Assembly: GCA_944381615.1 (NCBI GenBank)
Contig: CALWLT010000008.1
Span: 62,001 to 126,000 of the forward strand
DNA length: 64,000 nucleotides
Reading direction: 5' to 3'
Origin: an uncultured Lachnospiraceae bacterium
GTDB taxonomy: Bacteria > Bacillota > Clostridia > Lachnospirales > Lachnospiraceae
Every line of letters begins with the position of its first letter. Positions within the stretch are counted from its first letter, which is position 1. Shown piece after piece: positions 9,160 to 46,776 of this stretch. The notes beneath the pieces were generated by a model that made no database searches, was not told the DNA's origin, and worked only from the letters and a program-made list of their open reading frames with translations. The translations under genes were made by a program, and so were the position numbers.

Positions 9160-9165
9160 TATATT
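9137..9165 (+). promoter_or_regulatory. Promoter of rplJ-rplL
   Basis: A consensus TTGACA (9137-9142), 17-bp spacer and TATATT (9160-9165). The -35 box lies in the loop and the spacer in the right arm of the inverted repeat at 9123-9159. Confidence 0.85.
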
Positions 9166-9174
9166 ATCAACCGT

Positions 9175-9292
9175 GTTAACTGCCGAAGACAGCAGGTGCC
9201 CCCAGGGCATAAGGATGTAACGCCTGCCGAGGAAACGAATGGAGAGCGTAAGTTTTCTGCCTTTCTGTCTTTGGACGGGAAGGCTTTTTTTT
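9175..9292 (+). promoter_or_regulatory. Ribosomal L10 leader with attenuator
   Basis: This transcript leader carries the conserved core CCGAAGACAGCAGG, then CCTGCCGAGGAAACG, as in the known Firmicute L10 leader bound by L10(L12)4. A terminator hairpin follows (GCCTTTC and GGAAGGC arms, then eight T, about 9259-9292). Binding of excess L10 is known to favour such terminators. It lies 100 bp upstream of rplJ. Confidence 0.88.
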
Positions 9293-9395
9293 CGCATTCA
9301 GGAACCTTTTCGCGGGAGGGCGGCCGCAGGCCGGATCCGGCGGGGAGGAGATGTTTACCAGGCGGTTAGAGAATAAGACAGGAGGTAAACCATCA

Positions 9396-31655: not shown

Positions 31656-31657
31656 AA

Positions 31658-32575
31658 TTAACCTCCTATGTTTGTATTGCTGTAACCGTGAGTGACAAAT
31701 ATATTTTTGAACAGTTCCATACGCTCCTTGTCGGGTACGCCAAAGATGCCTTCTTCGTCGTATGCCCTGTCCAGTTTTCCGTATTTGTGCTTTCCCGTGT
31801 TGTGATAGGGAAGCAGGTTGACCTGCGCGACGCTGATGTGGTTGGCCTGCAGGAAGTCGATAACCCGGTTCATGAAATCTTCCGTTGCGTTGACGCCTTC
31901 GATGGTGGGAATGCGGATGTTGATCCGGGCCCCGTCCGCGCTCAGTTTCTTCAGATTCTCCAGAATCAGTTCGTTGTCGACGCCGATGAAATGCTTATGT
32001 ACCTCGGGATCCAGCGCCTTGATGTCGTACAGGAACGTGTCCACATAGGGCAGGATCCGTTTGAAATTCTCGTAGGGCGCGTAGCCGCAGGTGTCGATGT
32101 TGACGCTGTAGCCCTTGCTGGAAAGAATCCGGCACAGCTTTTCAATATAGTCCATGTCCTGGCACATGACCTCGCCGCCGGAGAGCGTAACGCCGCCGCC
32201 GGATTCCTCGTAGAACATCCGGTCTTTCTCGGCTTCCTTGACCAGTTCTTCTACCGTATATTCCTTACCGGCAATCTCGCGGGCGTTCTGCAGGCACCAG
32301 TCGGTGCAGACACCGCAGGCGTTGCATTTCTCACGGTCCATGACCAGCTTGCCGTCAACGATGGCGTTGACGCCGCTGGGACATCGCTTGACGCAGGCCC
32401 CGCAGGCGGTGCAGCGGTCGTGGAAAAGCATCAGCTCTTTCTGATAGCGCTGGCTTTCCGGGTTGTGGCACCAGAGGCAGGACAGCGGGCATCCCTTGAA
32501 AAAGATACTTGTGCGGATGCCGTTCCCGTCGTGGACGGAGAACTTCTGAATATTAAATACATATGGAGTTGCCAT
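31658..32575 (-). CDS. Glycyl radical enzyme activase (radical SAM)
   Basis: A 305-residue radical SAM enzyme that places the glycyl radical on the adjacent HypD-like protein. The radical SAM cluster motif is CPLSCLWC (near residue 29-36), followed by two ferredoxin-type clusters, CTACGACVKRC (near 55) and CNACGVCTDWC (near 83), typical for activases of dehydratase-type glycyl radical enzymes. GGGVTLSGGEV (near 126) is the SAM-binding GGE motif. It is the first gene of the two-gene operon on the minus strand, under the promoter at 32630-32658. Confidence 0.93.
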   Translation of the reverse strand: MATPYVFNIQKFSVHDGNGIRTSIFFKGCPLSCLWCHNPESQRYQKELMLFHDRCTACGACVKRCPSGVNAIVDGKLVMDREKCNACGVCTDWCLQNAREIAGKEYTVEELVKEAEKDRMFYEESGGGVTLSGGEVMCQDMDYIEKLCRILSSKGYSVNIDTCGYAPYENFKRILPYVDTFLYDIKALDPEVHKHFIGVDNELILENLKKLSADGARINIRIPTIEGVNATEDFMNRVIDFLQANHISVAQVNLLPYHNTGKHKYGKLDRAYDEEGIFGVPDKERMELFKNIFVTHGYSNTNIGG

Positions 32576-32658: not shown

Positions 32659-33317
32659 TACTTATTTGAAAAATTATATAAAAAATCTCTGCTGCCTGAC
32701 AGAGATCAGGGCATCTTAACCAAAGGAAATGGGAAAGAGCAGAACCAGTACCGGAAATTTTCACAACAGAAAAAAATAAACGGGAAATAGCAAAATAAAT
32801 TTTAATATTATAGAAAATCAAGGAAAATTTATTCATATAAATGAAAACAAGAAGGCGGGCGCTGCGCCCGGCGCGGGATTCCTGCGCCGGCCGATGACAG
32901 AGTTAGAAGACCGCTGCAGGCGGAAAAGGGATAGATTACAATAAAAAGGTTGTGGAATGATCAAGAAAACGCTGTTTTATGTTTGTGATACATCCTGTTA
33001 TGATAACCCCGGCCCGTTGCTGATTACGACGGTAATCTTCATTTCGTGTTCTATTAAATAAGGTAAGGTTGACAGAGTATGAGAGAGATTCGGAAGGATA
33101 CGTATGACCTGCATGTGCAGGTTGCTCCCGATGCGGTAACGAGAAAAGGCGATGACCGGGCGCAGCTGGTACGGATGAAGCCGGGCGCCATCCTGATTAA
33201 CACGGCGCGAAGGCGTAAAAATCCGTAAAAATCTGCGGAAATCTGTCATCAAATCCGTCATAATACCGGCAGAAATGAAAGAATGACCGGCAAAATTCTG
33301 TAAAAAGCACCGGACGA
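32659..33317. other. AT-rich intergenic region between divergent operons
   Basis: This is the first part of a 1,047-bp gap. It contains AT-rich DNA (32659-32850), then a GC-rich block with two hairpins: GGGCGC-T-GCGCCC near 32855, and CCGGCGCGGG-ATT-CCTGCGCCGG near 32870-32893 with one wobble pair. A fragment of a dehydrogenase gene follows (33079-33228). No complete gene is visible on either strand. Confidence 0.6.
33079..33228 (+). pseudogene. Fragment of a D-2-hydroxyacid dehydrogenase gene
   Basis: A 49-codon open stretch contains LHVQVAPDAVTRK and MKPGAILINTAR, the latter being the signature after the catalytic loop of NAD-dependent D-2-hydroxyacid dehydrogenases (normally about 320 residues). 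Both the N- and C-terminal parts are missing, and the motif breaks off at INTARRRKNP with a stop. It is a remnant, perhaps left from a deletion that brought the tungsten genes next to the glycyl radical operon. Confidence 0.6.
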
Positions 33318-33346
33318 TTGACAAAAAATCGTTCCGGTGCTATACT
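33318..33346 (+). promoter_or_regulatory. tupABC promoter inside an inverted repeat
   Basis: Consensus TTGACA (33318-33323), 17-bp spacer, TATACT (33341-33346). The -35 box lies between the arms GCACCGG-ACGAT (33307-33318) and ATCGTTCCGGTGC (about 33328-33340), an inverted repeat with one unpaired base. Confidence 0.85.
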
Positions 33347-33377
33347 TTCCACCGTATCTGTATCTGAAAAAACGAAT

Positions 33378-33497
33378 AATTTCGAGCTGATTCGCCTAAA
33401 GGGCGGCGTTTTTGCGTCCGATGGCGGCCAGCCACTGGGTTTCGGGGGAAACTCCGGGGCCTCCCGCATTTGGAAAGAAATGCATTGGAAAGAAATT
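33378..33497 (+). promoter_or_regulatory. Moco/Tuco-type riboswitch candidate upstream of tupA
   Basis: A 120-base leader element. Closing stem AATTTC (33378-33383) pairs with GAAATT (33492-33497). It contains GGCGGCCAGCCACTGGGTTT, GGGGGAAACTCCGGGGCCTCCCGC and a final GGAAAGAAATT, which fit what I recall of the Moco RNA motif, known to sense molybdenum or tungsten cofactor. A related copy lies at 36369-36489. A possible expression platform is TTTCCTTC (33552-33559), which can pair with the tupA ribosome binding site GAAGGGAG (33606-33613). Confidence 0.75.
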
Positions 33498-33622
33498 GAG
33501 AGTAAAGCCGGACGAATTATTTTTATCTGTATCATATCGCTTCTATTCTGATTTCCTTCCCGTGTCAAAGCTTTTTTCAGAAAAGGAATCTATTTTAATT
33601 TTTCTGAAGGGAGACGGTAACA

Positions 33623-34663
33623 ATGAAAAAGACGAATCGAGTGCTGGCTCTGGCCATGGCGGCCGCGCTGGCAGGAACGATGACGGCCTGCTCGTCTGCA
33701 GCAGAGGAGACGGCGGCTGAGACGGAGGCGGCTACGGAGGCTGCCGAGACGGAGGCGGAGACCGAGGCGGAGGAGTCCTCTGAGGCGGCGGAGGCTGCCG
33801 GGGACGACGTGCTTCTGATGGCGACCACCACCAGCACGGACGATACGGGCCTGCTGGATTACCTGCAGCCGCTGTTTCTGGAGGACACGGGCATCGACCT
33901 GCAGTGGACGGCGGTCGGAACCGGCGATGCGATCCAGAAGGGCAAGGACGGCGAGGTTGATATCGTCCTGGTACACTCCAGAAAGCAGGAGGATGCTTTC
34001 GTAGAAGAGGGCTACGGCGTGGAGCGCTTCCAGGTTATGTACAATGACTTCATCATCATCGGGCCGAAGGACGGCGCGGTTGCCAAGTCGGACGACGTAG
34101 GCGCTGTGTTCCAGCAGATTCGCGATGAGGAGCTCGGCTTCGTATCCCGCGGCGACAATTCCGGCACGCACAACAAGGAGATCGGTATCTGGGAAGCGCT
34201 GGGAATCGAAGATTATGAGAGCAACCCCAACTATGTTTCCGCCGGCGCGGGCATGGGCGACACCATCAACATGGCGGACGAGATGGGCGCGTACTGCCTG
34301 TCTGACCGTGGAACCTGGCTGTCCAGAAAAGCGGATTATCCGGATATGGACATCGTGTGCGAGGGAAGCGACGACCTGCTGAACCAGTACGGCGTGATCG
34401 CGGTAAATCCGGAGAAATACCCGGATGTCAACAACGCCGCGGCCAACACGTTCATCGAGTGGATCTGCTCTCCGGAGGTTCAGGATCTGATCGCGGAGTA
34501 CGGCGTTGAGGAGTATGGCGAGCCGCTGTTCTTCCCGAATGCGGATCAGGGCGAGGCCGCCGCGGAGGAGACGGCTGCCGCTGAGGAAGCCGCCGCAGAC
34601 GGCGAGGCTGCTGAGACCGAAGCTGCCGAGGAAGCTGCCGAGACCGAGGCTGCTGCCGAGTAA
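33623..34663 (+). CDS. tupA: Tungstate ABC transporter, substrate-binding lipoprotein TupA
   Basis: A 346-residue exported protein. A signal peptide with lipobox-like end MTAC (Cys near residue 24) is followed by an Ala/Glu/Thr linker (about 25-62), then the binding domain starting LMATTTSTDDTGLLDYLQP, the TupA signature whose TTTS residues hold the oxyanion. VDIVLVHSRKQEDAF and FVSRGDNSGTHNKE are also typical. A second low-complexity Ala/Glu tail (about 310-346) ends the protein. It is preceded by a Moco/Tuco-type riboswitch candidate. Tungstate rather than molybdate is inferred from family type and the AOR gene downstream. Confidence 0.92.
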   Translation: MKKTNRVLALAMAAALAGTMTACSSAAEETAAETEAATEAAETEAETEAEESSEAAEAAGDDVLLMATTTSTDDTGLLDYLQPLFLEDTGIDLQWTAVGTGDAIQKGKDGEVDIVLVHSRKQEDAFVEEGYGVERFQVMYNDFIIIGPKDGAVAKSDDVGAVFQQIRDEELGFVSRGDNSGTHNKEIGIWEALGIEDYESNPNYVSAGAGMGDTINMADEMGAYCLSDRGTWLSRKADYPDMDIVCEGSDDLLNQYGVIAVNPEKYPDVNNAAANTFIEWICSPEVQDLIAEYGVEEYGEPLFFPNADQGEAAAEETAAAEEAAADGEAAETEAAEEAAETEAAAE

Positions 34664-34800
34664 AACGGATAAAAGGGCGGGCGCAATGTCCGCCCGCATG
34701 AACGGGGCGCTGCAAAAACAGGACTTTGATTTTGCGGCGCCCCGTTTTGCAGCGCGGGATCAGGCGGGCCGTTTCGCCTGGCCCGGCAGAGGAGAGAGAC

Positions 34801-35490
34801 ATGGAAGGATTTCATCAGATTTTTTCGGAATTTTTCGGCACGGTAGGCGTGGTGGACTCGATCCGGGTTACGCTGATCATGTCCTTTTTTTCCACGCTGA
34901 TCGCGTCGGCGCTCGGCATTTTTCTGGGACTTCTGCTGGAGAAACGGCAGTTTCCCGGAAAACGGGCGGTCATCCGCGTGAACCGCACGCTGATGGGCGC
35001 GCCGCCGGTGGTCATCGGCCTGCTGGCTTATATGCTGCTGCGCAAGAAAGGGCCGCTCGGCGATCTGCGGTGGGTGTTTACCATCCAGGGCATGGTGTTT
35101 GCCCAGGTGCTGATCATCACGCCGATCATCTGCGGCATGGTCTATTCCTATGCGGTGCGCACGGCGCCGGCCATCCGGGCGTTTGCCAGGACCATGGGGG
35201 CGGACGCGCGCCAGACGGGCTGGCTTCTTCTGCGGGAGATGAAGCAGGAGCTGTATTTCGCCGTGGTGTCCGGCTACGGCCGCTCCATCAGCGAGGTGGG
35301 CGCGGTGTTTCTGGTGGGCGGCAATATCAAGAACAATACGCGCACGATGACGACGGCGATCTCCACGCTGAAGGGAGCGGGGGATTATTACGAGGGCGTG
35401 TTTCTGGGCGTGATCCTGATGATTATGGCGTTTACGGTGCAGACGCTGGCGGATCATTTCCGAAAGGAGGGCGGCGATGAAAATCTTTAA
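34801..35490 (+). CDS. tupB: Tungstate ABC transporter permease TupB
   Basis: A 229-residue permease with about five membrane spans. The cytoplasmic EAA-like loop (FARTMGADARQTGWLLLREM near residue 129) contacts the ATPase, and YGRSISEVGAVFLVGGNIK near 160 is typical of TupB/ModB. ATG 34801 follows AGAGGAGAG; an in-frame ATG at 34726 overlaps the spacer after tupA. It overlaps tupC by 14 bp. Confidence 0.92.
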   Translation: MEGFHQIFSEFFGTVGVVDSIRVTLIMSFFSTLIASALGIFLGLLLEKRQFPGKRAVIRVNRTLMGAPPVVIGLLAYMLLRKKGPLGDLRWVFTIQGMVFAQVLIITPIICGMVYSYAVRTAPAIRAFARTMGADARQTGWLLLREMKQELYFAVVSGYGRSISEVGAVFLVGGNIKNNTRTMTTAISTLKGAGDYYEGVFLGVILMIMAFTVQTLADHFRKEGGDENL

Positions 35491-36253
35491 TCTGCGGAAA
35501 CAGATGGGGGATTTCTGCTTGCAGATTGACCGCATGGAGCTTGCGCCCGGCGTGGTGCACGGGCTGGTGGGTTCCAACGGCTGCGGGAAATCCACGCTCT
35601 CCAAGCTGATCATGGGGATCCTCACGCCGGATGGCGGGCGGATTGACTACGAGGGGCTGACGCCGCGGGATCTGACCATGACGAGTCAGAAGCCGTATCT
35701 GCTTCACGATACGGTGTATCAGAACCTGATCTATCCGCTGAAGGTGCGGGGGATCCGGCCGGACGAGGCGGAGGCGGACGCGTGGCTGGCGCGCTGCGGG
35801 CTGGAGGGGAAGAAGAACCAGTATGCGAGATCGCTGAGCAGCGGCGAGCAGCAGAAGCTTTCCTTTATCCGCGCGCTGATCTTCCATCCGTCCTTTATCA
35901 TTGTGGATGAGACCATGTCCAACCTGGATCCGGACAGCACGGAGCTGTTTGAGGAAATGATCCTGGAGCAGCAGCGCATCCGGCCGGTTACCTGGCTGAT
36001 CATCAGCCATCAGCTGATCCATATCCGCCGTCTCTGCGGCTGCGTGCATTTCATGGAAAAGGGACGGCAGATCGCGCAGGGGACGCCGGAGGAGATCCTG
36101 CTTTATCCGCAGCATCCCGCGATCCGAAGCTTCCTGGCCAGCACGGAGGTCTTTTACCGGGATCCGGAGGCGCCGGGGGCCGGGAAAGCGGCGGCCGGCC
36201 GCGAGGAAGAGCCGGAAAGACCCGCGGGAAACGGACGGGACGGAGAGAGATAA
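35477..36253 (+). CDS. tupC: Tungstate ABC transporter ATP-binding protein TupC
   Basis: A 258-residue ABC ATPase. Walker A GSNGCGKSTLSK (near residue 32), signature LSSGEQQKLSFIRAL (near 120), Walker B FIIVDETMSNLDPDS (near 139) and the switch His in IISHQ (near 175) are present. It completes the tupABC importer. The last 25 residues are an Arg/Gly/Glu tail. A second riboswitch-controlled unit begins 66 bp downstream. Confidence 0.93.
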   Translation: MKIFNLRKQMGDFCLQIDRMELAPGVVHGLVGSNGCGKSTLSKLIMGILTPDGGRIDYEGLTPRDLTMTSQKPYLLHDTVYQNLIYPLKVRGIRPDEAEADAWLARCGLEGKKNQYARSLSSGEQQKLSFIRALIFHPSFIIVDETMSNLDPDSTELFEEMILEQQRIRPVTWLIISHQLIHIRRLCGCVHFMEKGRQIAQGTPEEILLYPQHPAIRSFLASTEVFYRDPEAPGAGKAAAGREEEPERPAGNGRDGER

Positions 36254-36318
36254 AATTTTAACATGAGTGAAAACGATTGATTTTATTTTTACATAAATGA
36301 AAATCTTTTAAAAACGGC

Positions 36319-36347
36319 CATTGCTTTTTCTGTCTGACTGTGTTATA
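36319..36347 (+). promoter_or_regulatory. Promoter of the moeA-aor operon
   Basis: TTGCTT (36319-36324), 17-bp spacer, TATACT (36342-36347), 21 bp before the closing stem of the riboswitch. The preceding stretch from 36254 is AT-rich and holds nothing else recognisable. Confidence 0.72.
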
Positions 36348-36368
36348 CTTTACCATAAACAGACAGGT

Positions 36369-36489
36369 AATTTCGAGCTGCAGCTCCTGTCCGCGGGATC
36401 TGAGAGAGGACCGGGTGGAGAGGCGGCCAATGGGTATCGGGGGAAACCCGGATGCCTCCCGCATCGCCTGGATGCATCGGAAAGAAATT
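36369..36489 (+). promoter_or_regulatory. Moco/Tuco-type riboswitch candidate upstream of moeA
   Basis: The second leader element of the same class as 33378-33497. Closing stem AATTTC (36369-36374) / GAAATT (36484-36489), the shared blocks TTTCGAGCTG, GGCGGCCAATGGGT and GGGGGAAACCCGGATGCCTC, and the 3' GGAAAGAAATT. It controls a rho-independent terminator at 36606-36664, so ligand-dependent termination before moeA is likely (inference). Confidence 0.78.
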
Positions 36490-36605
36490 ACATTTGCGGC
36501 CGGCCGGGGGAACCGGCGGCGCGCAGGAGAATTTTGTTTCCGGGGACGACGGCGGCGCAGGCCGCGGCAGGCGGAGGATTACCTGAAGAAAGAGCCAGGC
36601 TGAGA

Positions 36606-36664
36606 GCCGGACCCGAAGCGGAAGCGTCCTGACAGGATGCGCGAGGGGCCGGTTTTTTGTTTTG
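36606..36664 (+). terminator. Riboswitch-linked terminator before moeA
   Basis: Stem GCCGGACCC / GGGGCCGGT with an inner hairpin GCGTCCT-GAC-AGGATGC, followed by TTTTTTGTTTTG. It stands between the riboswitch and moeA, with no gene ending before it, which marks it as an attenuator. Confidence 0.85.
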
Positions 36665-36708: not shown

Positions 36709-37956
36709 ATGAAGCTGCTGCAGGTTGATACGCTCCAGGAGGCGTTTGAGAAGCTCAGAGAGGCGGCTGAAGAGATGCCGCTTCGCACGGAGACAAAGGA
36801 GCTTTCCCGGGCCTTTGGGCGGATTCTGGCTGAGGACGTGCGATCGGAAGAACCGATTCCGGCGTTTCGCCGTTCCAGCGTGGACGGATATGCGGTCCGC
36901 AGCGCCGATACGGCGGGAGCGACGGACAGCATTCCGGTATTTCTGGAAGTGATTGAAGAGGTTGCCATCGGCCATCCGGCGCTTCGCCGGATCGGGCCGG
37001 GCGCCTGTGCCTATGTCCCGACTGGCGGGATGATCCCGGAGGGCGCGGACGCGATGGTCATGGTGGAGTACACCGAGCCGCTCGACGGGCGGCATGTGGC
37101 GGTCAATGCGTCGGTTCCGTACGGGAAGTTTGTTGTGGAAGCGGGAGAGGACGTCAAAAAGGGGGAGACGGTCCTGGCCCGCGGCACCCGGATCGATCCG
37201 GCCCAGGCAGGAGTCCTGGCTGCGGTCGGCGCATCCCGGGTCGAGGTTTACGCGCCGTGGAGAGTGTCGATTCTCTCGACGGGGGATGAGCTGGTGCCGG
37301 TGGATTGCGCGCCGGGACCGGGTCAGGTACGCGATATCAATACATGGACGCTCTCGGCCGCCGCGCTCCATCTGGGGATGGAGATCGTCGGAAGACAGGC
37401 GGTCGCGGACGACGAGGGGGCGCTGGAGGAGGCGATTTGCCGGGAGGCGTCCCGCTGCGATCTGCTGCTGGTGTCCGGCGGCAGCTCCCAGGGCAGGAAG
37501 GACGCCACGATGGAGGCGCTTGATCGGATATCCGGCGGCGGCGTTTTCACGCACGGCCTGGCGCTGAAGCCGGGCAAGCCGACGATTCTCGGGTATGACG
37601 CCGGCCGCCGGACGATCCTGGCGGGGCTGCCGGGCCATCCGGTAGCGGCGCTGACGGTTTTTTCTCTGCTGTTTGGCCGGCTCTGGAGAGAGCTGACCGG
37701 GCAGAGGGAACCGCTTCCCGTCCCGGCGAGGATGGATACGAATCTTCCCGCCGCGCCGGGCAAGGCAACGTGTGTGCCGGTGCGGCTGGCGCCGGAGGGC
37801 TGCGGCGCGGGCGGAACCGGGCTTTTTGCCGTTCCGCTTCTCGGAAAGTCCGGCCTGATTACCACGGTATCCGGGGCGGACGGCTACATCCTGATGGATC
37901 GGGATCAGGAAGGGATCCGGCGGGATGAGACGGTTTTGGTTTACCGCTATTTCTGA
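36709..37956 (+). CDS. moeA: Molybdopterin molybdenumtransferase MoeA
   Basis: A 415-residue enzyme that inserts molybdenum or tungsten into adenylated molybdopterin. MoeA landmarks are FGRILAEDVRSEEPIPAFRRSSVDGYAVR (residues 33-61; conserved SxVDGYA), VPTGGMIPEGADAMVMVE (near 104), LSTGDEL (near 188) and LPGHPVAALTVF (near 308). ATG 36709 follows AGGAGGGAA; translation from 36637 would start inside the attenuator. First gene of the operon moeA, moeA-PBP, MOSC, ferredoxin, aor, moaD. Confidence 0.94.
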   Translation: MKLLQVDTLQEAFEKLREAAEEMPLRTETKELSRAFGRILAEDVRSEEPIPAFRRSSVDGYAVRSADTAGATDSIPVFLEVIEEVAIGHPALRRIGPGACAYVPTGGMIPEGADAMVMVEYTEPLDGRHVAVNASVPYGKFVVEAGEDVKKGETVLARGTRIDPAQAGVLAAVGASRVEVYAPWRVSILSTGDELVPVDCAPGPGQVRDINTWTLSAAALHLGMEIVGRQAVADDEGALEEAICREASRCDLLLVSGGSSQGRKDATMEALDRISGGGVFTHGLALKPGKPTILGYDAGRRTILAGLPGHPVAALTVFSLLFGRLWRELTGQREPLPVPARMDTNLPAAPGKATCVPVRLAPEGCGAGGTGLFAVPLLGKSGLITTVSGADGYILMDRDQEGIRRDETVLVYRYF

Positions 37957-37971: not shown

Positions 37972-39876
37972 ATGGGAAAGAGGAATCTGTATCTGAAAAA
38001 TACGCCGGTGGATGAGGCGTTGTCGAAATATCTGAAGGCGCTTGACGGCCTGCTGGTTCCGGAGCGGGAGGTTATCCCGGCGGCGGAAAGCCTCGGCCGG
38101 GTCACGGCGCAGGCGGTGTATGCCCGCTACTGCTCGCCGCTCTACAATGCGGCGGCGATGGACGGTATCGCCGTGGAGGCGGAGCGCACGAAGGGGGCTT
38201 CGGAGCGGGAGCCGCTTTTGCTGCGCGCGGGCGAGGATTTTACGGTGGTGGATACGGGCGATCCGATCCATGCGCCGCACGACGCGGTAATCATGGCGGA
38301 GGATCTGCTGGAGCAGGAGGACGGCTCCGTGCAGATCACGGAGGCGGCCGCCGCCTGGCAGCATGTGCGGCCCATCGGCGAGGACATCGTGGCGGGGGAG
38401 ATGCTGCTTCCGGGATACCATGTGATCCGGCCGATTGACATCGGCGTGCTGCTGGCCGGCGGGATCACGCAGCTGGAGGTCTGGAAAAAGCCTTCGGTGG
38501 CCATTTTCCCGACCGGCACGGAGATCATCGAGCCGGGCCAGGATCCGAAGGACGGGGATATCATCGAGTCCAATTCGCGGATGTTTGAGGCGATGGCCCG
38601 GGAGCAGGGGGCGGATCCCACGCGCTTTTCGCCGATTGCCGACGATTATGAGCGGCTCAGGCAGGCGGTTTCCGACGCGGTGGATTCGTTTGATCTGGTC
38701 ATTGTCAACGCCGGTTCCAGCGCGGGGACGGAGGATTACACGGTCCACGTGCTGCGGGAGCTGGGCGAGGTGCTGATTCACGGCGTGGCGATCAAGCCGG
38801 GCAAGCCGGTTATCCTGGCGATTGTCCGCGGCAAGCCGGTCATCGGCCTGCCGGGCTATCCGGTTTCCGCCTATATCAATTTTGAGAATTTCGTCATTCC
38901 GGTGTTAAACCGCCTGAGCGGCCGGACCGGCCGGACGGCGCCGCAGGCGGAGGCGGTTCTCTCGAGGCGGCTGGTATCGTCGCTGAAATACCGGGAATAT
39001 GTGCGCGTCAAGGTCGGCAAGGTGGACGACCGCCTGGTGGCTTCGCCGCTGGCGAGGGGCGCGGGGGCGGCCATGAGCCTCGTGCGGGCCGACGGCTTCT
39101 GCGTGATTCCGCAGAGCAGCGAGGGCGTGGAGGCCGGAGAGAAGGTCACGGTAGAGCTCTACCGGACGATGGACGAGATCGATCACACGGTGGTGGCCAT
39201 CGGCAGCCACGATCTGATCCTGGATGTGATGGCGGATCTGATGCCGGCGCTGTACCCCGGCAATTACCTTTCCAGCACGCATGTGGGCAGCATGGGCGGG
39301 CTGATGGCCCTGCGCCGCGGCGAGGCGCATCTGGCGCCGACGCATCTGCTGGACGAGGAGACGGGCGTCTATAATATCCCGACGCTTAAGCGGATGTTTA
39401 CGGAGCCCATGGCGCTGATCAAGGGCGTGGATCGGATTCAGGGCATCCTGGTCAAGAAGGGGAACCCGCTGGGGATCCGGGGGATCGCGGATCTGCCGGG
39501 CGTACATTACGTCAACCGCCAGCGCGGAGCGGGAACGCGCGTGCTGTTTGATTATCTGCTGAAGAAGGAAGGCATCAGCGCGGACGCGATCCGCGGCTAT
39601 GACCGGGAGGCGGCGACCCATATGGCGGTGGCGGCGGCCATCGCGGGGGGAGACGCCGACGCGGGAATGGGCATTGAGTCCGCGGCCCGGGCCATGGGCC
39701 TGGACTTTATCGAAGTGGGGCCGGAAGAATACGATTTTGCCGTTCCGGTGCGCTTTCTTGAGCTTTTGCATGTGCAGCGGTTCCTGGATGTGTTAAAGAG
39801 CCGGGAATTTGCAGAGCGCGTAGAGGCGCTGGGCGGATATTCGCTGCGCCAGACGGGAACGGTGCTGTATCTGTAA
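37972..39876 (+). CDS. MoeA-like protein fused to a periplasmic-binding-protein-like domain
   Basis: A 634-residue fusion. Residues about 1-400 are a second MoeA (SPLYNAAAMDGIAV near 58, IFPTGTEIIEPGQ near 178, IGLPGYPVSAYINFENF near 287). Residues about 410-634 form a ligand-binding domain of the PBP-like type found behind MoeA in Clostridia and archaea: SHDLILDVMADLMP near 419, HVGSMGGLMALRRGEAHLAPTH near 440, RQRGAGTRVLFDYLLKKEG near 520. That domain resembles oxyanion-binding proteins but has no signal peptide, so it should act in the cytoplasm. One MoeA may serve tungsten and the other molybdenum, which is inference. It is 15 bp after moeA. Confidence 0.88.
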   Translation: MGKRNLYLKNTPVDEALSKYLKALDGLLVPEREVIPAAESLGRVTAQAVYARYCSPLYNAAAMDGIAVEAERTKGASEREPLLLRAGEDFTVVDTGDPIHAPHDAVIMAEDLLEQEDGSVQITEAAAAWQHVRPIGEDIVAGEMLLPGYHVIRPIDIGVLLAGGITQLEVWKKPSVAIFPTGTEIIEPGQDPKDGDIIESNSRMFEAMAREQGADPTRFSPIADDYERLRQAVSDAVDSFDLVIVNAGSSAGTEDYTVHVLRELGEVLIHGVAIKPGKPVILAIVRGKPVIGLPGYPVSAYINFENFVIPVLNRLSGRTGRTAPQAEAVLSRRLVSSLKYREYVRVKVGKVDDRLVASPLARGAGAAMSLVRADGFCVIPQSSEGVEAGEKVTVELYRTMDEIDHTVVAIGSHDLILDVMADLMPALYPGNYLSSTHVGSMGGLMALRRGEAHLAPTHLLDEETGVYNIPTLKRMFTEPMALIKGVDRIQGILVKKGNPLGIRGIADLPGVHYVNRQRGAGTRVLFDYLLKKEGISADAIRGYDREAATHMAVAAAIAGGDADAGMGIESAARAMGLDFIEVGPEEYDFAVPVRFLELLHVQRFLDVLKSREFAERVEALGGYSLRQTGTVLYL

Positions 39877-39896: not shown

Positions 39897-40364
39897 ATGG
39901 AGAACACAGCGGGAAGGGAAGGAACCGTCCGCGGGCTGTACGTGTTCCGGGAGCGGGGGCAGCCGGGCGAGCCGGCAGAGCGCGCTCTTTTTCAGAAGGA
40001 TAGGGGCATGGAGGGCGACCGGCATGCCACGGGCGGTAAGAGGCAGGTTACGCTGCTTTCCGGCGAGGTCCGCGAGTGGATGAACGCGCAGCCGCAGCCG
40101 GGACTCTGCTTTCGGCGCTACAAGGCCAATCTGGAGACGGAGGGCCTTGATACGGCCGCGCTGCGGCCCGGCATGGTCCTGCGGGCGGGAACGGCCTGCT
40201 TCAGGGTCAGCGGGGCCGGGAAGGAATGCTTTCCGGAGTGCGCCCTGTTCCGGGAGGGAGAAGCCTGCCGCCTTTCATCCGGAGCCGTGTTCCTGACGGT
40301 TTCAGAGACAGGAATGGTATTGAAAAATGATAAAATCAAAGTGACAGGAGGGGTTTCATTATGA
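39897..40364 (+). CDS. MOSC domain protein
   Basis: A 155-residue single MOSC domain. MOSC proteins bind or transfer sulfur to molybdenum-type cofactors through a conserved cysteine. The family pattern is seen in KDRGMEGDRHATGGKRQVTLLSGE (near residue 38) and in GAGKECFPECALFREGEAC (near 104), which contains the candidate catalytic Cys. A second, closer-to-standard MOSC gene sits in the moa operon. It overlaps the ferredoxin start by four bases (ATGA). Confidence 0.85.
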   Translation: MENTAGREGTVRGLYVFRERGQPGEPAERALFQKDRGMEGDRHATGGKRQVTLLSGEVREWMNAQPQPGLCFRRYKANLETEGLDTAALRPGMVLRAGTACFRVSGAGKECFPECALFREGEACRLSSGAVFLTVSETGMVLKNDKIKVTGGVSL

Positions 40365-40747
40365 AGCGGTTGGAAAAAGACGAATCGCTGTGCATTGGCT
40401 GCCGCCAGTGCGAGGAAGCATGTTCAAAAGCGTATTATAAGGTGTCGGATCCGGCAAAGTCCTGCATCCGCATCACGGACCGGGAGGACGGGACGCACGC
40501 CATTGCGATCTGCACGCAGTGCGGCAAATGCGCGGAGGTCTGCAACACCGGCGTGATCACGCAGGATGCAAAGGGCATTTTCCGCCTGAACCGGAAGGAG
40601 TGCGCCGGCTGCCTGATGTGCGTCGGCTTCTGTCCGGAGAATGTGATGGTACAGAGCGACGACCGGCTGGAGCCGTCCAAGTGCATTGCCTGCGGCCTGT
40701 GCGTGAAGGCATGCCCGACGGGCGCGATCCGGATGGTAGAAGAATAG
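40361..40747 (+). CDS. Ferredoxin-type 4Fe-4S protein of the AOR operon
   Basis: A 128-residue electron carrier with cysteine clusters CIGCRQCEEAC (near residue 11), CTQCGKCAEVC (near 48), CAGCLMCVGFC (near 78) and CIACGLCVKAC (near 105). These are four CxxCxxC-type units, so up to four [4Fe-4S] clusters. Genes of this kind commonly precede aor. It probably transfers electrons between AOR and the ferredoxin pool. Coupled at both ends. Confidence 0.9.
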   Translation: MKRLEKDESLCIGCRQCEEACSKAYYKVSDPAKSCIRITDREDGTHAIAICTQCGKCAEVCNTGVITQDAKGIFRLNRKECAGCLMCVGFCPENVMVQSDDRLEPSKCIACGLCVKACPTGAIRMVEE

Positions 40748-40759
40748 GAGGGAAACAGG

Positions 40760-42982
40760 ATGATTTGTATGTGCGATGTGCCGCGCTATGCCGACGCGGA
40801 TATGGAAGAAATCAGAAAAATGAGAGAGGCCCATACGGTCCTCAAGCATGTGGATTATGAGCCGAAGGAGCTGTATCACGGATATACGGACAAACGGCTT
40901 AAGATCGATCTGAGCAGCAATTCCGTGGAGATCCTGGATATCCCGGAGGAGGTAAAGGAGAAATTTACCGGCGGCAAGGGCTACTGCCTGCGCTATCTGT
41001 GGGACGACACCACGCCGGATACGAAGTGGGATTCGCCGGAGAACGCCATTACCATGTCGGCCGGCCCCATCGCCGGCATTACGCAGTACGCCGGAACCGG
41101 AAAATGCCTGGTCTGCACGATTTCCCCGATGACGGATATCCCGATTGACTCCAACGTGGGCGGTTATTTCGGGCCGTTCTTAAAGTTTTCCGGCTTTGAC
41201 GTGATTGAACTGACCGGCAAGGCGGAGGAAGACGTGATCATCGTGATCGACGGCAACAAGGGCACGATTTCCATCGAGAAGGCGCCGATGGAGCACCTGG
41301 ATTCCCATGTGCTGGGCGAGGAGCTGACCGCGATGTACGCCGAGGATGAGAACGACCGTAAGAACGTGGCGGTTGTCTGCTCGGGTTCGGCGGCGGAACA
41401 CTGCAATCTGTCGATGTTAAACTTTACGTTCTTTGATCCGAAGCGGAACGTGGTGCGCTTAAAACAGGCCGGCCGCGGCGGCATCGGACGCGTGTTTGCC
41501 AACAAGCACATCAAGGCGCTGGTCTGCCATTTTAAGGGCGTCAAGGCCAACCTGAACCATGTGTACGATATCAGCCTTCTGAATAAAGACGGCCTGAAGT
41601 TCCACCGCGAGGTGGCGACGCTGGACAACAAGCAGAACGCCATGAGAAAATCCGGTACGGCCTACTCTCTGCGGACGCTGAGCGATTACGATATCCTGCC
41701 GACCCGCAACTACAAATACGGCGGCACCGACCGGATCGACGAGATGGCTCCCGAGGTATGGCAGAACAAATGGCTGACGCAGGGTGGCGCCGACGGCTGC
41801 TGGTACGGCTGCTCGATGGCCTGCGCCAAGACGGCGGATCATTTCCTTCTGAAGACCGGTCCCTATAAGGGACAGCGCGTCTGCGTGGACGGGCCGGAGT
41901 ACGAGACGGCGGCCGGCCTGGGCCCGAACTGCGGCATTACCGATCCGCAGGCGATCCTGGAGCTCAATTTCTACTGCGACACCTACGGCGTGGACACCAT
42001 CTCCTACGGAACCATGACGGCGTTTCTGATGGAGTGCTATGAAAACGGAATCCTCAATAAAGAGAGAACCGGCGGCCTGGAGCTGACCTGGGGCAATATC
42101 GAGGCCGACCTGGAGATGCTGCACCAGATGGCGAGAAACGAGGGCTTCGGCAAGATCGCCGCGCTGGGCGCGCACAAGCAGAAAGAGTATTTCGCAGAGA
42201 TGGGCTGGGGCGATCCGGCGTTCATGAACGATATCGCCATGGAGCAGAAGGGACTGGAGTACTCCGAGTATTCGCCCAAGGAATCCCTGGCGCAGCAGGG
42301 CGGCTACGGCCTGACCAACAAGGGGCCGCAGCATGACGAGGCCTGGCTGATCTTCATGGATCAGGTCAACAACCAGATCCCGACGTTCGAGGACAAGGCG
42401 GAAGCGCTTTACTATTATCCGATGTTCCGTACCTGGTTCGGCCTTCTGGGCCTGTGCAAGCTGCCGTGGAATGATATCGTTCCGGCGGACAACAGCATGA
42501 CGGACGAGCCGGCCAAGGTTCCGGAGCACGTAGACAATTATCTGGATCTGTATTACGGCGTGACCGGAAAGAAGATCGACCGCGACGAGATGATCCGGAT
42601 GTCGGAGCGGGTTTACAATTTCCAGAGAATCTTTAACATCCGCCTGGGGAAGGGCCTGCGGAAGAATGACGCCATTCCGTACCGTTCCCAGGGTCCTGTG
42701 ACGGAGGAGGAATACCTCTCCAGACAGGAGCGCTACGACGGCCAGCTGGTAGAGCAGGTCGGCCTGACGCCGGAGCAGGTTCAGAGCATGACTCTGCAGG
42801 AGAAGATGGCGGCGACCAGACAGTACAGGGAGTCCATGTATGAGAAGCTGATCGACGCGGTTTATCCGAAGCGCGGATGGACGTTAAACGGCGTGCCGAC
42901 CGTCGCTCATCTGAAGGAGCTGGGCATGGATCTGCCGGAGCTTCTGGAGGTTGTAGAGCCTCTGCAGGATGTGCAGCCGTGA
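40760..42982 (+). CDS. aor: Aldehyde:ferredoxin oxidoreductase family tungsten enzyme
   Basis: A 740-residue W-pterin enzyme that oxidises an aldehyde to its acid, or the reverse. The N-terminal domain includes FTGGKGYCLRYLWDD (near residue 72) and SAGPIAGITQYAGTGKC (near 95) for the bis-pterin. The cluster cysteines are CWYGCSMAC (near 348-356) and LGLCKLPWND (near 570). It is longer at the N-terminus than archaeal AOR by about 45 residues; that extension starts MICMCDVPRYADADMEE and has two cysteines. The substrate is unknown: AOR, GOR and benzoyl-CoA-reductase-like branches cannot be separated by eye. The moaD gene overlaps its stop codon. Confidence 0.93.
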   Translation: MICMCDVPRYADADMEEIRKMREAHTVLKHVDYEPKELYHGYTDKRLKIDLSSNSVEILDIPEEVKEKFTGGKGYCLRYLWDDTTPDTKWDSPENAITMSAGPIAGITQYAGTGKCLVCTISPMTDIPIDSNVGGYFGPFLKFSGFDVIELTGKAEEDVIIVIDGNKGTISIEKAPMEHLDSHVLGEELTAMYAEDENDRKNVAVVCSGSAAEHCNLSMLNFTFFDPKRNVVRLKQAGRGGIGRVFANKHIKALVCHFKGVKANLNHVYDISLLNKDGLKFHREVATLDNKQNAMRKSGTAYSLRTLSDYDILPTRNYKYGGTDRIDEMAPEVWQNKWLTQGGADGCWYGCSMACAKTADHFLLKTGPYKGQRVCVDGPEYETAAGLGPNCGITDPQAILELNFYCDTYGVDTISYGTMTAFLMECYENGILNKERTGGLELTWGNIEADLEMLHQMARNEGFGKIAALGAHKQKEYFAEMGWGDPAFMNDIAMEQKGLEYSEYSPKESLAQQGGYGLTNKGPQHDEAWLIFMDQVNNQIPTFEDKAEALYYYPMFRTWFGLLGLCKLPWNDIVPADNSMTDEPAKVPEHVDNYLDLYYGVTGKKIDRDEMIRMSERVYNFQRIFNIRLGKGLRKNDAIPYRSQGPVTEEEYLSRQERYDGQLVEQVGLTPEQVQSMTLQEKMAATRQYRESMYEKLIDAVYPKRGWTLNGVPTVAHLKELGMDLPELLEVVEPLQDVQP

Positions 42983-43176
42983 AATTAAATAACCGCCCCT
43001 ACAAGGACTGGCATGAGGGGCTGACAATCCGCGGCGTCATGGAGCACATGAAATTTACCTGGCCCAAGCTGGTGGTCAAGGTCAACGGGACGCTGATCTG
43101 GCCGGAGGATTACGACCGGGTGGTATTAAAGGAGGAGGATGATCTGCAGATCATCCACCTGCTGGGCGGCGGTTGA
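42979..43176 (+). CDS. MoaD/ThiS-like sulfur carrier protein
   Basis: A 65-residue ubiquitin-fold protein, KLNNRPY at the start and LLGGG at the end. The C-terminal Gly-Gly accepts an adenylate, then a thiocarboxylate, and delivers sulfur to molybdopterin. Start GTG 42979 overlaps the aor stop (GTGA), so it is translationally coupled to AOR. It is closer to the tungsten-enzyme-linked MoaD family than to ThiS by context. No moaE accompanies it. Confidence 0.85.
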   Translation: MKLNNRPYKDWHEGLTIRGVMEHMKFTWPKLVVKVNGTLIWPEDYDRVVLKEEDDLQIIHLLGGG

Positions 43177-43261: not shown

Positions 43262-43370
43262 GAGAAAAAAGAGCCGGGAAAATGCGGCGGGGAAGAAAAA
43301 AAGAAGGCCTGAGAAATGCGGCGGGGAAGAAAAAAGAAGGCCTGGGAAATGCGGCGGGAAAATGAGATGA
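43262..43370 (+). repeat. Purine-rich tandem repeat of about 33 bp before moeB
   Basis: About two and a half to three copies of a unit of the form AATGCGGCGGGGAAGAAAAA followed by AGAAGGCCTG(A/G)GA. It is nearly all purine on the plus strand, directly before the ribosome binding site of the ThiF/MoeB-like gene. An ORF through it has no independent support. Confidence 0.7.
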
Positions 43371-43384
43371 GGAGGGACGGGAAA

Positions 43385-44158
43385 ATGTCGGAAAAGATGC
43401 CGGAAAGAAAACGGGAAACAAGCCGGGACGGCGCGCGCTATCTGCGGCACCGGATGCTGGCGCAGGTCGGAGAGGACGGACAGAAAAAGCTGGAAGAAAG
43501 CCGGGTTCTGATTGTGGGAGCCGGCGGGCTCGGCTCGCCGGCGGCCCTGTATCTGGCGGCGGCCGGCGTGGGGACGATTGGGCTGGCGGATTTTGACCGG
43601 GTGGATGTGAGCAACCTGCAGCGGCAGATCCTCTATACGGAGCTGGACGTGGGAAGAAAAAAAACGGAGGCGGCGGCCGCGCGGCTGCGGGAAAGGAACG
43701 GCGCGGTGCGGGTGCTGACGTATGAGGACGGGCTTACGGAAGAAAATGCGCGGGAGATCATCGGGAAGTATGATGTGGTTATCGACGCCTGCGACAATTT
43801 TCCGACCCGCTATCGGATCAGCGACGTCTGCATGGAGCTGGGAAAGCCGGACGTCTACGGGGCGATCTGCGAATTTATGGGGCAGGTCACGGTATTTGCG
43901 CCGGGCGGCCCCTGCCTGCGCTGCCTGAGCCCGGAGGATCCGGCCGCGGCGCCGGACGCCCGCGCGTTCGGCGTGCTGGGCGCCGTGCCGGGCGTGATCG
44001 GGAGTCTGCAGGCGGTCGAGGCCATGAAATGGATCCTGGGGACGGGCGGCAGCCTGAAGGGACGGATGCTGTTTCTCGATCTCCTCTCGATGCGGGCGGA
44101 TGAGATAGAAATCCCGGTCAATCCGCGCTGCAGCCGTCACGGGACAGGAAATTCCTAA
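43385..44158 (+). CDS. ThiF/MoeB/HesA family adenylyltransferase
   Basis: A 257-residue E1-like enzyme that adenylates the C-terminal glycine of MoaD/ThiS-like carriers. ATP loop VLIVGAGGLGSPAALYLAAAGVG (residues 40-62; GxGGLG), then DVSNLQRQILYTELDVG (near 73) and VIDACDNFPTRY (near 137). One zinc CxxC is present (CLRC near 179), while the second pair is reduced to a single Cys (NPRCSRHG). ATG 43385 follows GAGGAGGG. Its likely partner is the small MoaD-like protein immediately upstream, though a terminator lies between them. Confidence 0.88.
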   Translation: MSEKMPERKRETSRDGARYLRHRMLAQVGEDGQKKLEESRVLIVGAGGLGSPAALYLAAAGVGTIGLADFDRVDVSNLQRQILYTELDVGRKKTEAAAARLRERNGAVRVLTYEDGLTEENAREIIGKYDVVIDACDNFPTRYRISDVCMELGKPDVYGAICEFMGQVTVFAPGGPCLRCLSPEDPAAAPDARAFGVLGAVPGVIGSLQAVEAMKWILGTGGSLKGRMLFLDLLSMRADEIEIPVNPRCSRHGTGNS

Positions 44159-44362: not shown

Positions 44363-44839
44363 ATGGAACAGAAGCTGACCCATTTTGACGCGGAAGGCAA
44401 CGCCGTGATGGTGGATGTCTCGGGCAAGAATATTACGAGCCGCACGGCGGTGGCCTCGGGAAAGATCCGGGTCAACGAGGCGGTCATGGAGGCGGTCCTG
44501 GCCGGCACGGTAGCCAAGGGCGACGTGCTGGGCGTGGCCCGGGTCGCGGGAATCATGGCGGTCAAGCGGACGCCGGATCTCATCCCCATGTGCCACACGC
44601 TGCTGATTACCAAATGCGGGATTGATTTCGAGATTGACCGGGAAAATCTGGAGATTCAGGCGATCTGTACGGCGAAGGTCGAGGGAAAAACGGGCGTGGA
44701 GATGGAGGCGCTGACGGGCGTGAGCGTGGCGCTTCTGACGATCTACGACATGTGCAAGGCGATCGACAAGCGGATGGAGCTGGGAGAAATTCATCTCGAG
44801 ACGAAATCGGGAGGAAAGAGCGGAGATTTTGTGCGATGA
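44363..44839 (+). CDS. moaC: Cyclic pyranopterin monophosphate synthase accessory protein MoaC
   Basis: A 158-residue enzyme for the second part of the first Moco step (3',8-cH2GTP to cPMP). The family start [17 protein letters not shown], then [13 protein letters not shown] (near residue 74) and [26 protein letters not shown] (residues about 110-135) are diagnostic. It overlaps moaA by four bases. Confidence 0.97.
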
Positions 44840-45823: not shown

Positions 45824-46291
45824 ATGGGAAGAGTGCTTGCCACCTGTACGAGCGAGATCAAGGGCGTACAGAAGAAGAATGTGCACAGAGTGCATCTGAT
45901 TGAGGATTTCGGGATTGAGGGGGACGCCCACGCGGGCAAATGGCACCGCCAGGTCAGCCTTCTCTCCCATGAGAAGATCGAGGCGTTCCGCGCCCGGGGC
46001 GCGGTCGTGGAGGACGGCGCGTTCGGCGAAAACCTGGTGGTGGAGGGAATCGATTTTAAGACCCTGCCCATCGGGACGAAATTTCGCTGCAACGACGTGG
46101 TGCTGGAGCTGACGCAGATCGGCAAGGAATGTCATCACGGCTGCGCTATTTTCCAGGCGATGGGCGACTGCATCATGCCGCGCGAGGGCGTCTTTACGCG
46201 CGTGCTGCACGGCGGCGAGATAAAAGAAGGGGATATGCTGGAAATTATGGAGATGCCGGAGACGGCGAAAGGGGAAGAACAGGGAGCATGA
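45824..46291 (+). CDS. MOSC domain protein in the moa operon
   Basis: A 155-residue MOSC protein: GIEGDAHAGKWHRQVSLLSHEKIE near residue 29 and the conserved cysteine stretch TQIGKECHHGCAIFQAMGDC near 101, with the candidate sulfur-carrying Cys. It is commonly encoded between moaC/moaA and mog in Clostridia, where it may handle cofactor sulfuration. It overlaps mog by four bases. Confidence 0.9.
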   Translation: MGRVLATCTSEIKGVQKKNVHRVHLIEDFGIEGDAHAGKWHRQVSLLSHEKIEAFRARGAVVEDGAFGENLVVEGIDFKTLPIGTKFRCNDVVLELTQIGKECHHGCAIFQAMGDCIMPREGVFTRVLHGGEIKEGDMLEIMEMPETAKGEEQGA

Positions 46292-46776
46292 GAGCGGCGA
46301 TCATTACATCCAGTGATTCGGGATATGCGGGAAAGCGGGAAGATTTAAGCGGGCCGGCGATCGAGGAGATGCTTAGGGAAGCCGGCTATGAGGTCGTCTC
46401 GCGGACGATCCTGCCGGACGATCAGGAGAAGTTGGAAGCGGAGCTGATCTCCATCTGCGACGAAGGGCGGGCGGATCTGATTCTCACGACGGGCGGGACC
46501 GGGTTTTCGCCGCGCGATGTGATGCCGGAGGCGACGGCGGCCGTGGCGGAGCGGATGGTGCCGGGGATTCCGGAGGCCATGCGTGCCTACAGTATGCAGT
46601 ATACCAAGCGGACGATGCTGAGCCGGGCGGCCAGCGGAATCCGCAGACAGACGCTGATCGTGAATCTGCCGGGCAGCCCCAAGGCGGTGCGCGAGTGCCT
46701 GGAGTATATTCTGCCGGAGCTGGAGCACGGCCTGCAGATCCTGCTGGGCGAGGCGGGCGAGTGCGCCAGACAGTAG
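46288..46776 (+). CDS. mog: Molybdopterin adenylyltransferase (MogA/MoaB)
   Basis: A 162-residue enzyme that adenylates molybdopterin before metal insertion by MoeA. IITSSDSGYAGKREDLSG (near residue 5), ILTTGGTGFSPRDVMPEAT (near 65) and IVNLPGSPKAVREC (near 130) are the MogA family motifs. It starts at ATG 46288, overlapping the MOSC stop (ATGA). It is the last gene of the moa operon. Confidence 0.94.
   Translation: MRAAIITSSDSGYAGKREDLSGPAIEEMLREAGYEVVSRTILPDDQEKLEAELISICDEGRADLILTTGGTGFSPRDVMPEATAAVAERMVPGIPEAMRAYSMQYTKRTMLSRAASGIRRQTLIVNLPGSPKAVRECLEYILPELEHGLQILLGEAGECARQ

Follow-up and report, generated by a model that had tools for sequence, protein, structure and literature searches.

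P3-less Moco/Tuco RNAs on either side of a tungstate transporter operon appear to follow tungsten use in a genus of Lachnospiraceae

Which cofactor is sensed by the two RNA elements that flank a tungstate transporter operon, and how do they act on the genes behind them? The question is raised by a 64,000-nt stretch of DNA (the window) from the 2.58-Mb draft genome of an uncultured Lachnospiraceae bacterium (G000), where element 1 stands ahead of tupABC and element 2 ahead of an operon for cofactor assembly and a tungsten-type aldehyde:ferredoxin oxidoreductase (AOR). Both belong to RF01055, the family of the molybdenum cofactor (Moco) and tungsten cofactor (Tuco) RNAs, for whose P3-less subgroup Regulski et al. 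(2008, PMC2408646) put forward Tuco as the ligand. We argue that elements 1 and 2 are P3-less riboswitches that most likely sense Tuco and switch off tungstate import and the cofactor and AOR operon. Plentiful Tuco read by element 1 would turn off tupABC, and read by element 2 it would turn off cofactor assembly and AOR. By analogy with the Escherichia coli moaA leader (PMC2408646), ligand binding would mean repression; we infer that element 1 acts on translation, that each aptamer is coupled to its output, and that Tuco itself is the bound ligand.

Family assignment and association with tungsten

Elements 1 and 2 are genuine RF01055 RNAs, far beyond chance. A cmscan search of the whole window against Rfam returned three family matches, two of them to RF01055, at 33368-33496 (66.3 bits, E 9.7e-14) and 36359-36503 (39.5 bits, E 7e-6). 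In both alignments the P3 columns of the model (gugg..ccac) are deleted, and P1, P2, P4 and P5 are found around the conserved junction (CGAGC, GGGT, GCCTCCC, GGAAAG). Because both scores pass the curated cut-off of 36 bits and P3 is missing from both alignments, the suggestion of the initial annotation, that a pair of Moco/Tuco-type elements brackets the importer, is confirmed, and both lie where it put them (33378-33497 and 36369-36489). The AATTTC/GAAATT closing stem and the blocks TTTCGAGCTG and GGAAAGAAATT that it gave as common to the two are seen in the sequence, as is GGCGGCCA, whose MAFFT register against GCCA.TGGGT differs slightly between the elements. The source genome carries the tungsten markers TupA and AOR, and the genes behind the two elements serve Tuco or its precursor.

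The comparison within the genus covered eight genomes: the source, Clostridium fessum (G222), G299, G300, G301, G302, G303 and G304. The RF01055 pair, about 3 kb apart, flanks tupABC in five of the eight, and three of these five have a third copy. Between species, the element 1 aptamers are 70-84% identical and the leader behind them 53-67%. RNA, TupA and AOR co-occur in exactly G000, G222, G299, G301 and G302, and all three are missing from G300, G303 and G304, which have ModA and molybdenum enzymes of the xanthine oxidase family. ModA is found in G000, G222 and G302 as well as in the three RNA-less genomes, and the xanthine-oxidase-family enzymes follow it. No enzyme of the dimethyl sulfoxide reductase (PF00384) or sulfite oxidase (PF00174) family was detected in any of the eight genomes, in searches that did detect the positive controls. 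G299 and G301 keep both RNAs. The searches found neither ModA (Wtp-type transporters were not searched) nor any enzyme of PF00384, PF02738 or PF00174 in them, which leaves AOR as their only pterin metalloenzyme so far as these searches go; draft status (95-100% complete, 6-7% contamination) limits this slightly. Judged by gene content, the RNA appears to track tungsten use in the genus, and the assignment to tungsten is well supported.

The same association is found more widely. A survey that took in 299 genomes from the family and 392 from the order gave, together with the genus, 100 RF01055 elements, classified by eye from the sequence as 64 P3-less and 36 P3-bearing. Among 60 Clostridia, a strong AOR or TupA match occurs in 31 of the 34 genomes with P3-less elements only, against 3 of the 26 with P3-bearing elements only (Fisher p 2e-10, not corrected for kinship). 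At the level of single elements, AOR or tupA lies within 9.5 kb of 43/64 P3-less RNAs and of 1/36 P3-bearing ones. This survey repeats, in new genomes, the correlation between P3 absence and tungsten that was published in 2008.

Output of the two elements

The initial annotation had assigned element 1 to translation and element 2 to termination. Termination is supported by the terminator predicted behind element 2 (Table 1). Counterparts of differing sequence follow element 2 in G222, G302 and G299 and beat 20/20 shuffles, so that the terminator is predicted in at least four species; the G299 hairpin taken alone does not exceed its shuffles in stability (z -0.05). The leaders of the third copies, or elements 3, are likewise predicted to carry terminators. 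Between element 1 and tupA, terminator scans and folding revealed nothing resembling a terminator stem in the window, in G222 or in G302, and there the tupA Shine-Dalgarno is predicted to lie in a hairpin of z -2.7, -3.1 and -2.7, respectively, relative to shuffles. The anti-Shine-Dalgarno named at first (33552-33559) has to be replaced: it could form eight pairs with the tupA Shine-Dalgarno, but is out-competed by 33571-33585, and the predicted structure places the Shine-Dalgarno in the hairpin 33571-33585/33599-33613.

A competing account gives both copies the same output, element 1 likewise controlling transcription, by means of a terminator that escapes simple scans. We hold this to be unlikely: the leader from aptamer 1 to tupA contains a GC stem and then GTTTTCTTC in G299, and in G301 a stem is predicted there ahead of T-rich sequence, but the window, G222 and G302 have Shine-Dalgarno hairpins in place of any such stem. 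The idea of two output mechanisms is retained as regards the terminator behind element 2 and the terminator-less, hairpin-bearing leader of element 1 in several species, and is not supported as regards the named pairing and, in equilibrium folding, a dependence on P1.

The third RNA and the choice of metal

Several observations weigh against the Tuco riboswitch reading. On the side of the output, the Shine-Dalgarno hairpin has z < -2.5 in just three of the five species, being weaker in G299 (-2.0) and absent in G301 (-0.2), and equilibrium folding found no switching pair linking P1 to either output. Forcing or forbidding P1 leaves the predictions of the hairpin and of the terminator unchanged, the hairpin being predicted in both states; the idea that P1 governs access to the Shine-Dalgarno or the terminator was dropped after constrained folding, which covered element 1 in five species plus seven element 2 and 3 leaders, gave no clear sign of it. 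On the side of the ligand, the E. coli RNA lost regulation when its P3 was deleted, instead of changing specificity (PMC2408646). Furthermore, a third P3-less RNA of the source genome (G000:C5:37040-37163, 64.6 bits), with a terminator, precedes genes for a C-GCAxxG-C-C protein and a molybdopterin-dependent aldehyde oxidoreductase (NF045668, 1139 bits, over the cut-off). In C. fessum this RNA is followed by a co-directional cluster that also holds modABC, a nucleotidyltransferase gene, moaC and moaA; the tup-aor operon of that species has neither moaC nor moaA within the stretch read. The third RNA may control the synthesis of the precursor of both cofactors, it may shut off the molybdenum enzyme when the tungsten counterpart is served, or it may sense Moco despite having no P3. 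The preference for tungsten over molybdenum expressed in the initial annotation is supported by the association within the genus and across Clostridia, and the tungsten-only picture is incomplete, given the molybdenum-type gene behind the third copy.

These same genes speak for the view that P3-less RNAs recognise the pterin cofactor whether it holds tungsten or molybdenum, their tungsten company merely mirroring the metal used; two other genomes, G084 and G319, have a P3-less RNA ahead of modABC. We nevertheless find this view rather improbable, since the molybdenum-only genomes of the genus are devoid of any RF01055 RNA, related genomes have P3-bearing RNAs beside molybdenum genes, and the E. 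coli RNA does discriminate between the cofactors of the two metals (PMC2408646).

A further reading concerns the closing pair of P5. Elements 1 and 2 have C-G there and the third RNA has U-A, a split found in each of the three genus members with three RNAs; U-A is also the pair of most P3-bearing RNAs and of most P3-less RNAs next to molybdenum genes. Among the 100 Clostridia elements, the pair is C-G or G-C in 36/43 P3-less RNAs beside tungsten genes, 2/8 P3-less RNAs beside molybdenum genes and 3/36 P3-bearing RNAs. The P3-less group might then comprise two specificities marked by this pair, C-G in the tungsten-gene RNAs and U-A in the molybdenum-side RNA, a proposal that we regard as doubtful. 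We have not adopted the pair as a determinant of the metal, in view of the seven exceptions beside tungsten genes and of shared ancestry, and treat it as a lead only. If true, these bacteria would carry paired P3-less sensors of Tuco and Moco, and P3 would not be the determinant of metal choice.

Anatomy, neighbouring genes and known systems

P1 has seven pairs in element 1 and eight in element 2, and its position in element 1 deserves a correction. This element has two copies of GGAAAG (33472-33477 and 33487-33492), and the Rfam alignment sets the 3' strand of P1 on the first. Set against element 2 and against its counterpart in G301, whose first copy is disrupted, the second copy proves to be the homologous strand; the end at 33497 given in the initial annotation accordingly fits better than that of Rfam. 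Both elements have a lengthened P5 hairpin (GCAUY..RRUGC), followed by AUYGGAAAG. Its stem is kept with base changes (GCAUC/GAUGC, GCAUU/AAUGC, GCAUC/GGUGC) in 10/10 elements of the five species; its loop is variable in element 2, and the GGAAAG repeat is present in 4/5 copies of element 1, CCTCCCGCATTTGGAAAGAAATGCATTGGAAAGA being identical in those four species. When 84,980 genomes were scanned for the exact pattern, the long P5 turned up in members of this genus only. The second GGAAAGAAAT inside the P5 loop of element 1 (33466-33492) is a possible alternative 3' strand of P1, identical in four species and altered in G301. A 34-nt block identical in four species had prompted the idea that the repeat is a second, competing P1 strand; it was set back, since element 2 and G301 keep the P5 stem and lose the repeat, which makes the stem the conserved feature.

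Both elements have a GAAA tetraloop on P4; at the receptor position P2 reads CCTAA..GATGG in element 1 and CCTGT..GGTGG in element 2 (36374-36430); the element 2 orthologues of the four other species retain CCTAA. The receptor is usual and not universal, some published members of RF01055 being devoid of it (PMC2408646). That element 2 is a decayed, functionless copy is highly implausible: it scores just over the cut-off and has the CCTGT bulge, but it retains the eight-pair P1, the GAAA tetraloop and the conserved junctions, its terminator beats all shuffles, its orthologues in four species reach 44-57 bits, and its loss of score is in part due to the long P5.

Table 1. Features of the tup and moeA-aor loci in the window.
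Feature	Position	Strand	Basis
Sigma-70-like promoter, TTGACA-17-TATACT, ~30 nt upstream of aptamer 1	33318..33346	+	11/12 matches; equivalent boxes in relatives by eye
Element 1, P3-less Moco/Tuco aptamer; P1 33377-33383/33492-33498	33377..33498	+	RF01055 66.3 bits; P1 register by folding and alignment
Element 1 extended P5 hairpin, GCATTT-GGAAAG-AAATGC, loop repeating the GGAAAG core	33466..33483	+	Alignment of relatives
Hairpin covering the tupA Shine-Dalgarno (GAAGGGAG, 33607-33614), candidate translational output	33571..33613	+	-13.7 kcal/mol, z -2.7
tupA, tungstate-binding protein	33623..34663	+	NF041772 E 1.6e-77, 260 bits, below curated cut-off of 400
tupB, permease	34801..35490	+	NF038017 above cut-off; NF041773 (TupB) E 3.1e-34, below cut-off
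tupC, ABC ATPase	35477..36253	+	Family search; location after tupB, conserved in five species
Element 2, P3-less Moco/Tuco aptamer; P1 36367-36374/36484-36491; P5 hairpin 36461-36475	36367..36491	+	RF01055 39.5 bits
Predicted intrinsic terminator after element 2, stem and six T	36604..36658	+	-27.1 kcal/mol, z -3.4, 0/200 shuffles as stable
moeA homologue	36709..37956	+	Family search
moeA with C-terminal PBP-like domain (PRK14498 type)	37972..39876	+	NF011068 755 bits, over cut-off
MOSC-domain protein	39897..40364	+	NF011069 partial match
4Fe-4S protein, probable AOR electron-transfer subunit	40361..40747	+	Domain search
Tungsten-type AOR	40760..42982	+	PF01314 329 bits, PF02730 158 bits
MoaD/ThiS-like sulfur carrier	42988..43176	+	PF02597 27.2 bits
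moeB/thiF-like adenylyltransferase	43316..44158	+	Family search
moaC	44363..44839	+	Open reading frame; homologue at same place in G302; named by sequence similarity
moaA	44830..45816	+	Open reading frame; matches moaA regions of relatives
MOSC protein and overlapping mogA/moaB-type gene	45824..46776	+	TIGR00177 over cut-off for mogA/moaB-type gene

The possibility that the AOR is a YdhV-like enzyme that might hold molybdenum was rejected, its identity to E. coli YdhV being just ~26% and confined to the N-terminal domain. The genes divergent from the tup locus (29202-32575) encode a PFL-like glycyl radical enzyme together with its activating enzyme, and a short remnant at 33100-33230, probably a gene fragment, resembles the cofactor-binding motif of D-2-hydroxyacid dehydrogenases (MKPGAILINTAR). 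Further away, 9165-9299 is an ordinary ribosomal protein L10 leader (RF00557, 74.7 bits).

The elements are not a new kind of switch, because Regulski et al. (2008, PMC2408646) hold both the proposal that P3-less RNAs sense Tuco and the presence of both outputs in one organism. That study described the RF01055 family, the P3-less group and its match with tungsten use, taking tupA/tupB as marker, and covered multi-copy organisms and tandem copies. Our elements resemble the published P3-less RNAs in the core sequence, in P1, P2, P4 with its GAAA loop and P5, in the lack of P3, in their place beside genes for tungsten transport, cofactor synthesis and AOR, and in the pairing of a predicted terminator output with a candidate ribosome-site output in one organism. 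They differ in the lengthened P5 and, for element 1, mostly in the second GGAAAG of its loop. The E. coli moaA leader has the same family and overall fold, but it bears P3, has its ribosome site within P1 and responds to Moco and not to Tuco (PMC2408646). Syntrophomonas wolfei likewise devotes several P3-less copies to one cofactor and transport locus, three in series ahead of one operon (PMC2408646), whereas here one stands ahead of each of two adjacent operons. In a related genus, G205 has two P3-less RNAs 244 nt apart ahead of tupABC (G205:C5:60683 and 60927), in the order first RNA, terminator, promoter-like sequence and second RNA, the last of these near the ribosome site; the first RNA has C-G as its P5 pair and the second U-A. 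Moco RNAs have been noted in the tungsten user Eubacterium limosum (PMC5651825), and a word search of two recent papers on gut tungsten biology (PMC11980592, PMC13328260) met no mention of riboswitches in the text it covered. The instability of the cofactor precludes direct tests of binding (PMC2408646), and the literature that we examined held no direct demonstration of a Tuco riboswitch.

What is new here is the comparison within a genus, the tungsten-only genomes in which the RNA persists, a revised register for element 1 and, as a test case, the third RNA on the molybdenum side. In C. fessum, a named isolate, the two RNAs on the tungsten side and the one on the molybdenum side could be set against each other within a single cell. 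For the assignment to Tuco, which has rested on correlation since 2008, the genus provides a clean natural comparison in which the RNA appears to follow tungsten use: it persists in genomes that yielded no molybdenum enzyme and is absent from the molybdenum-only members.

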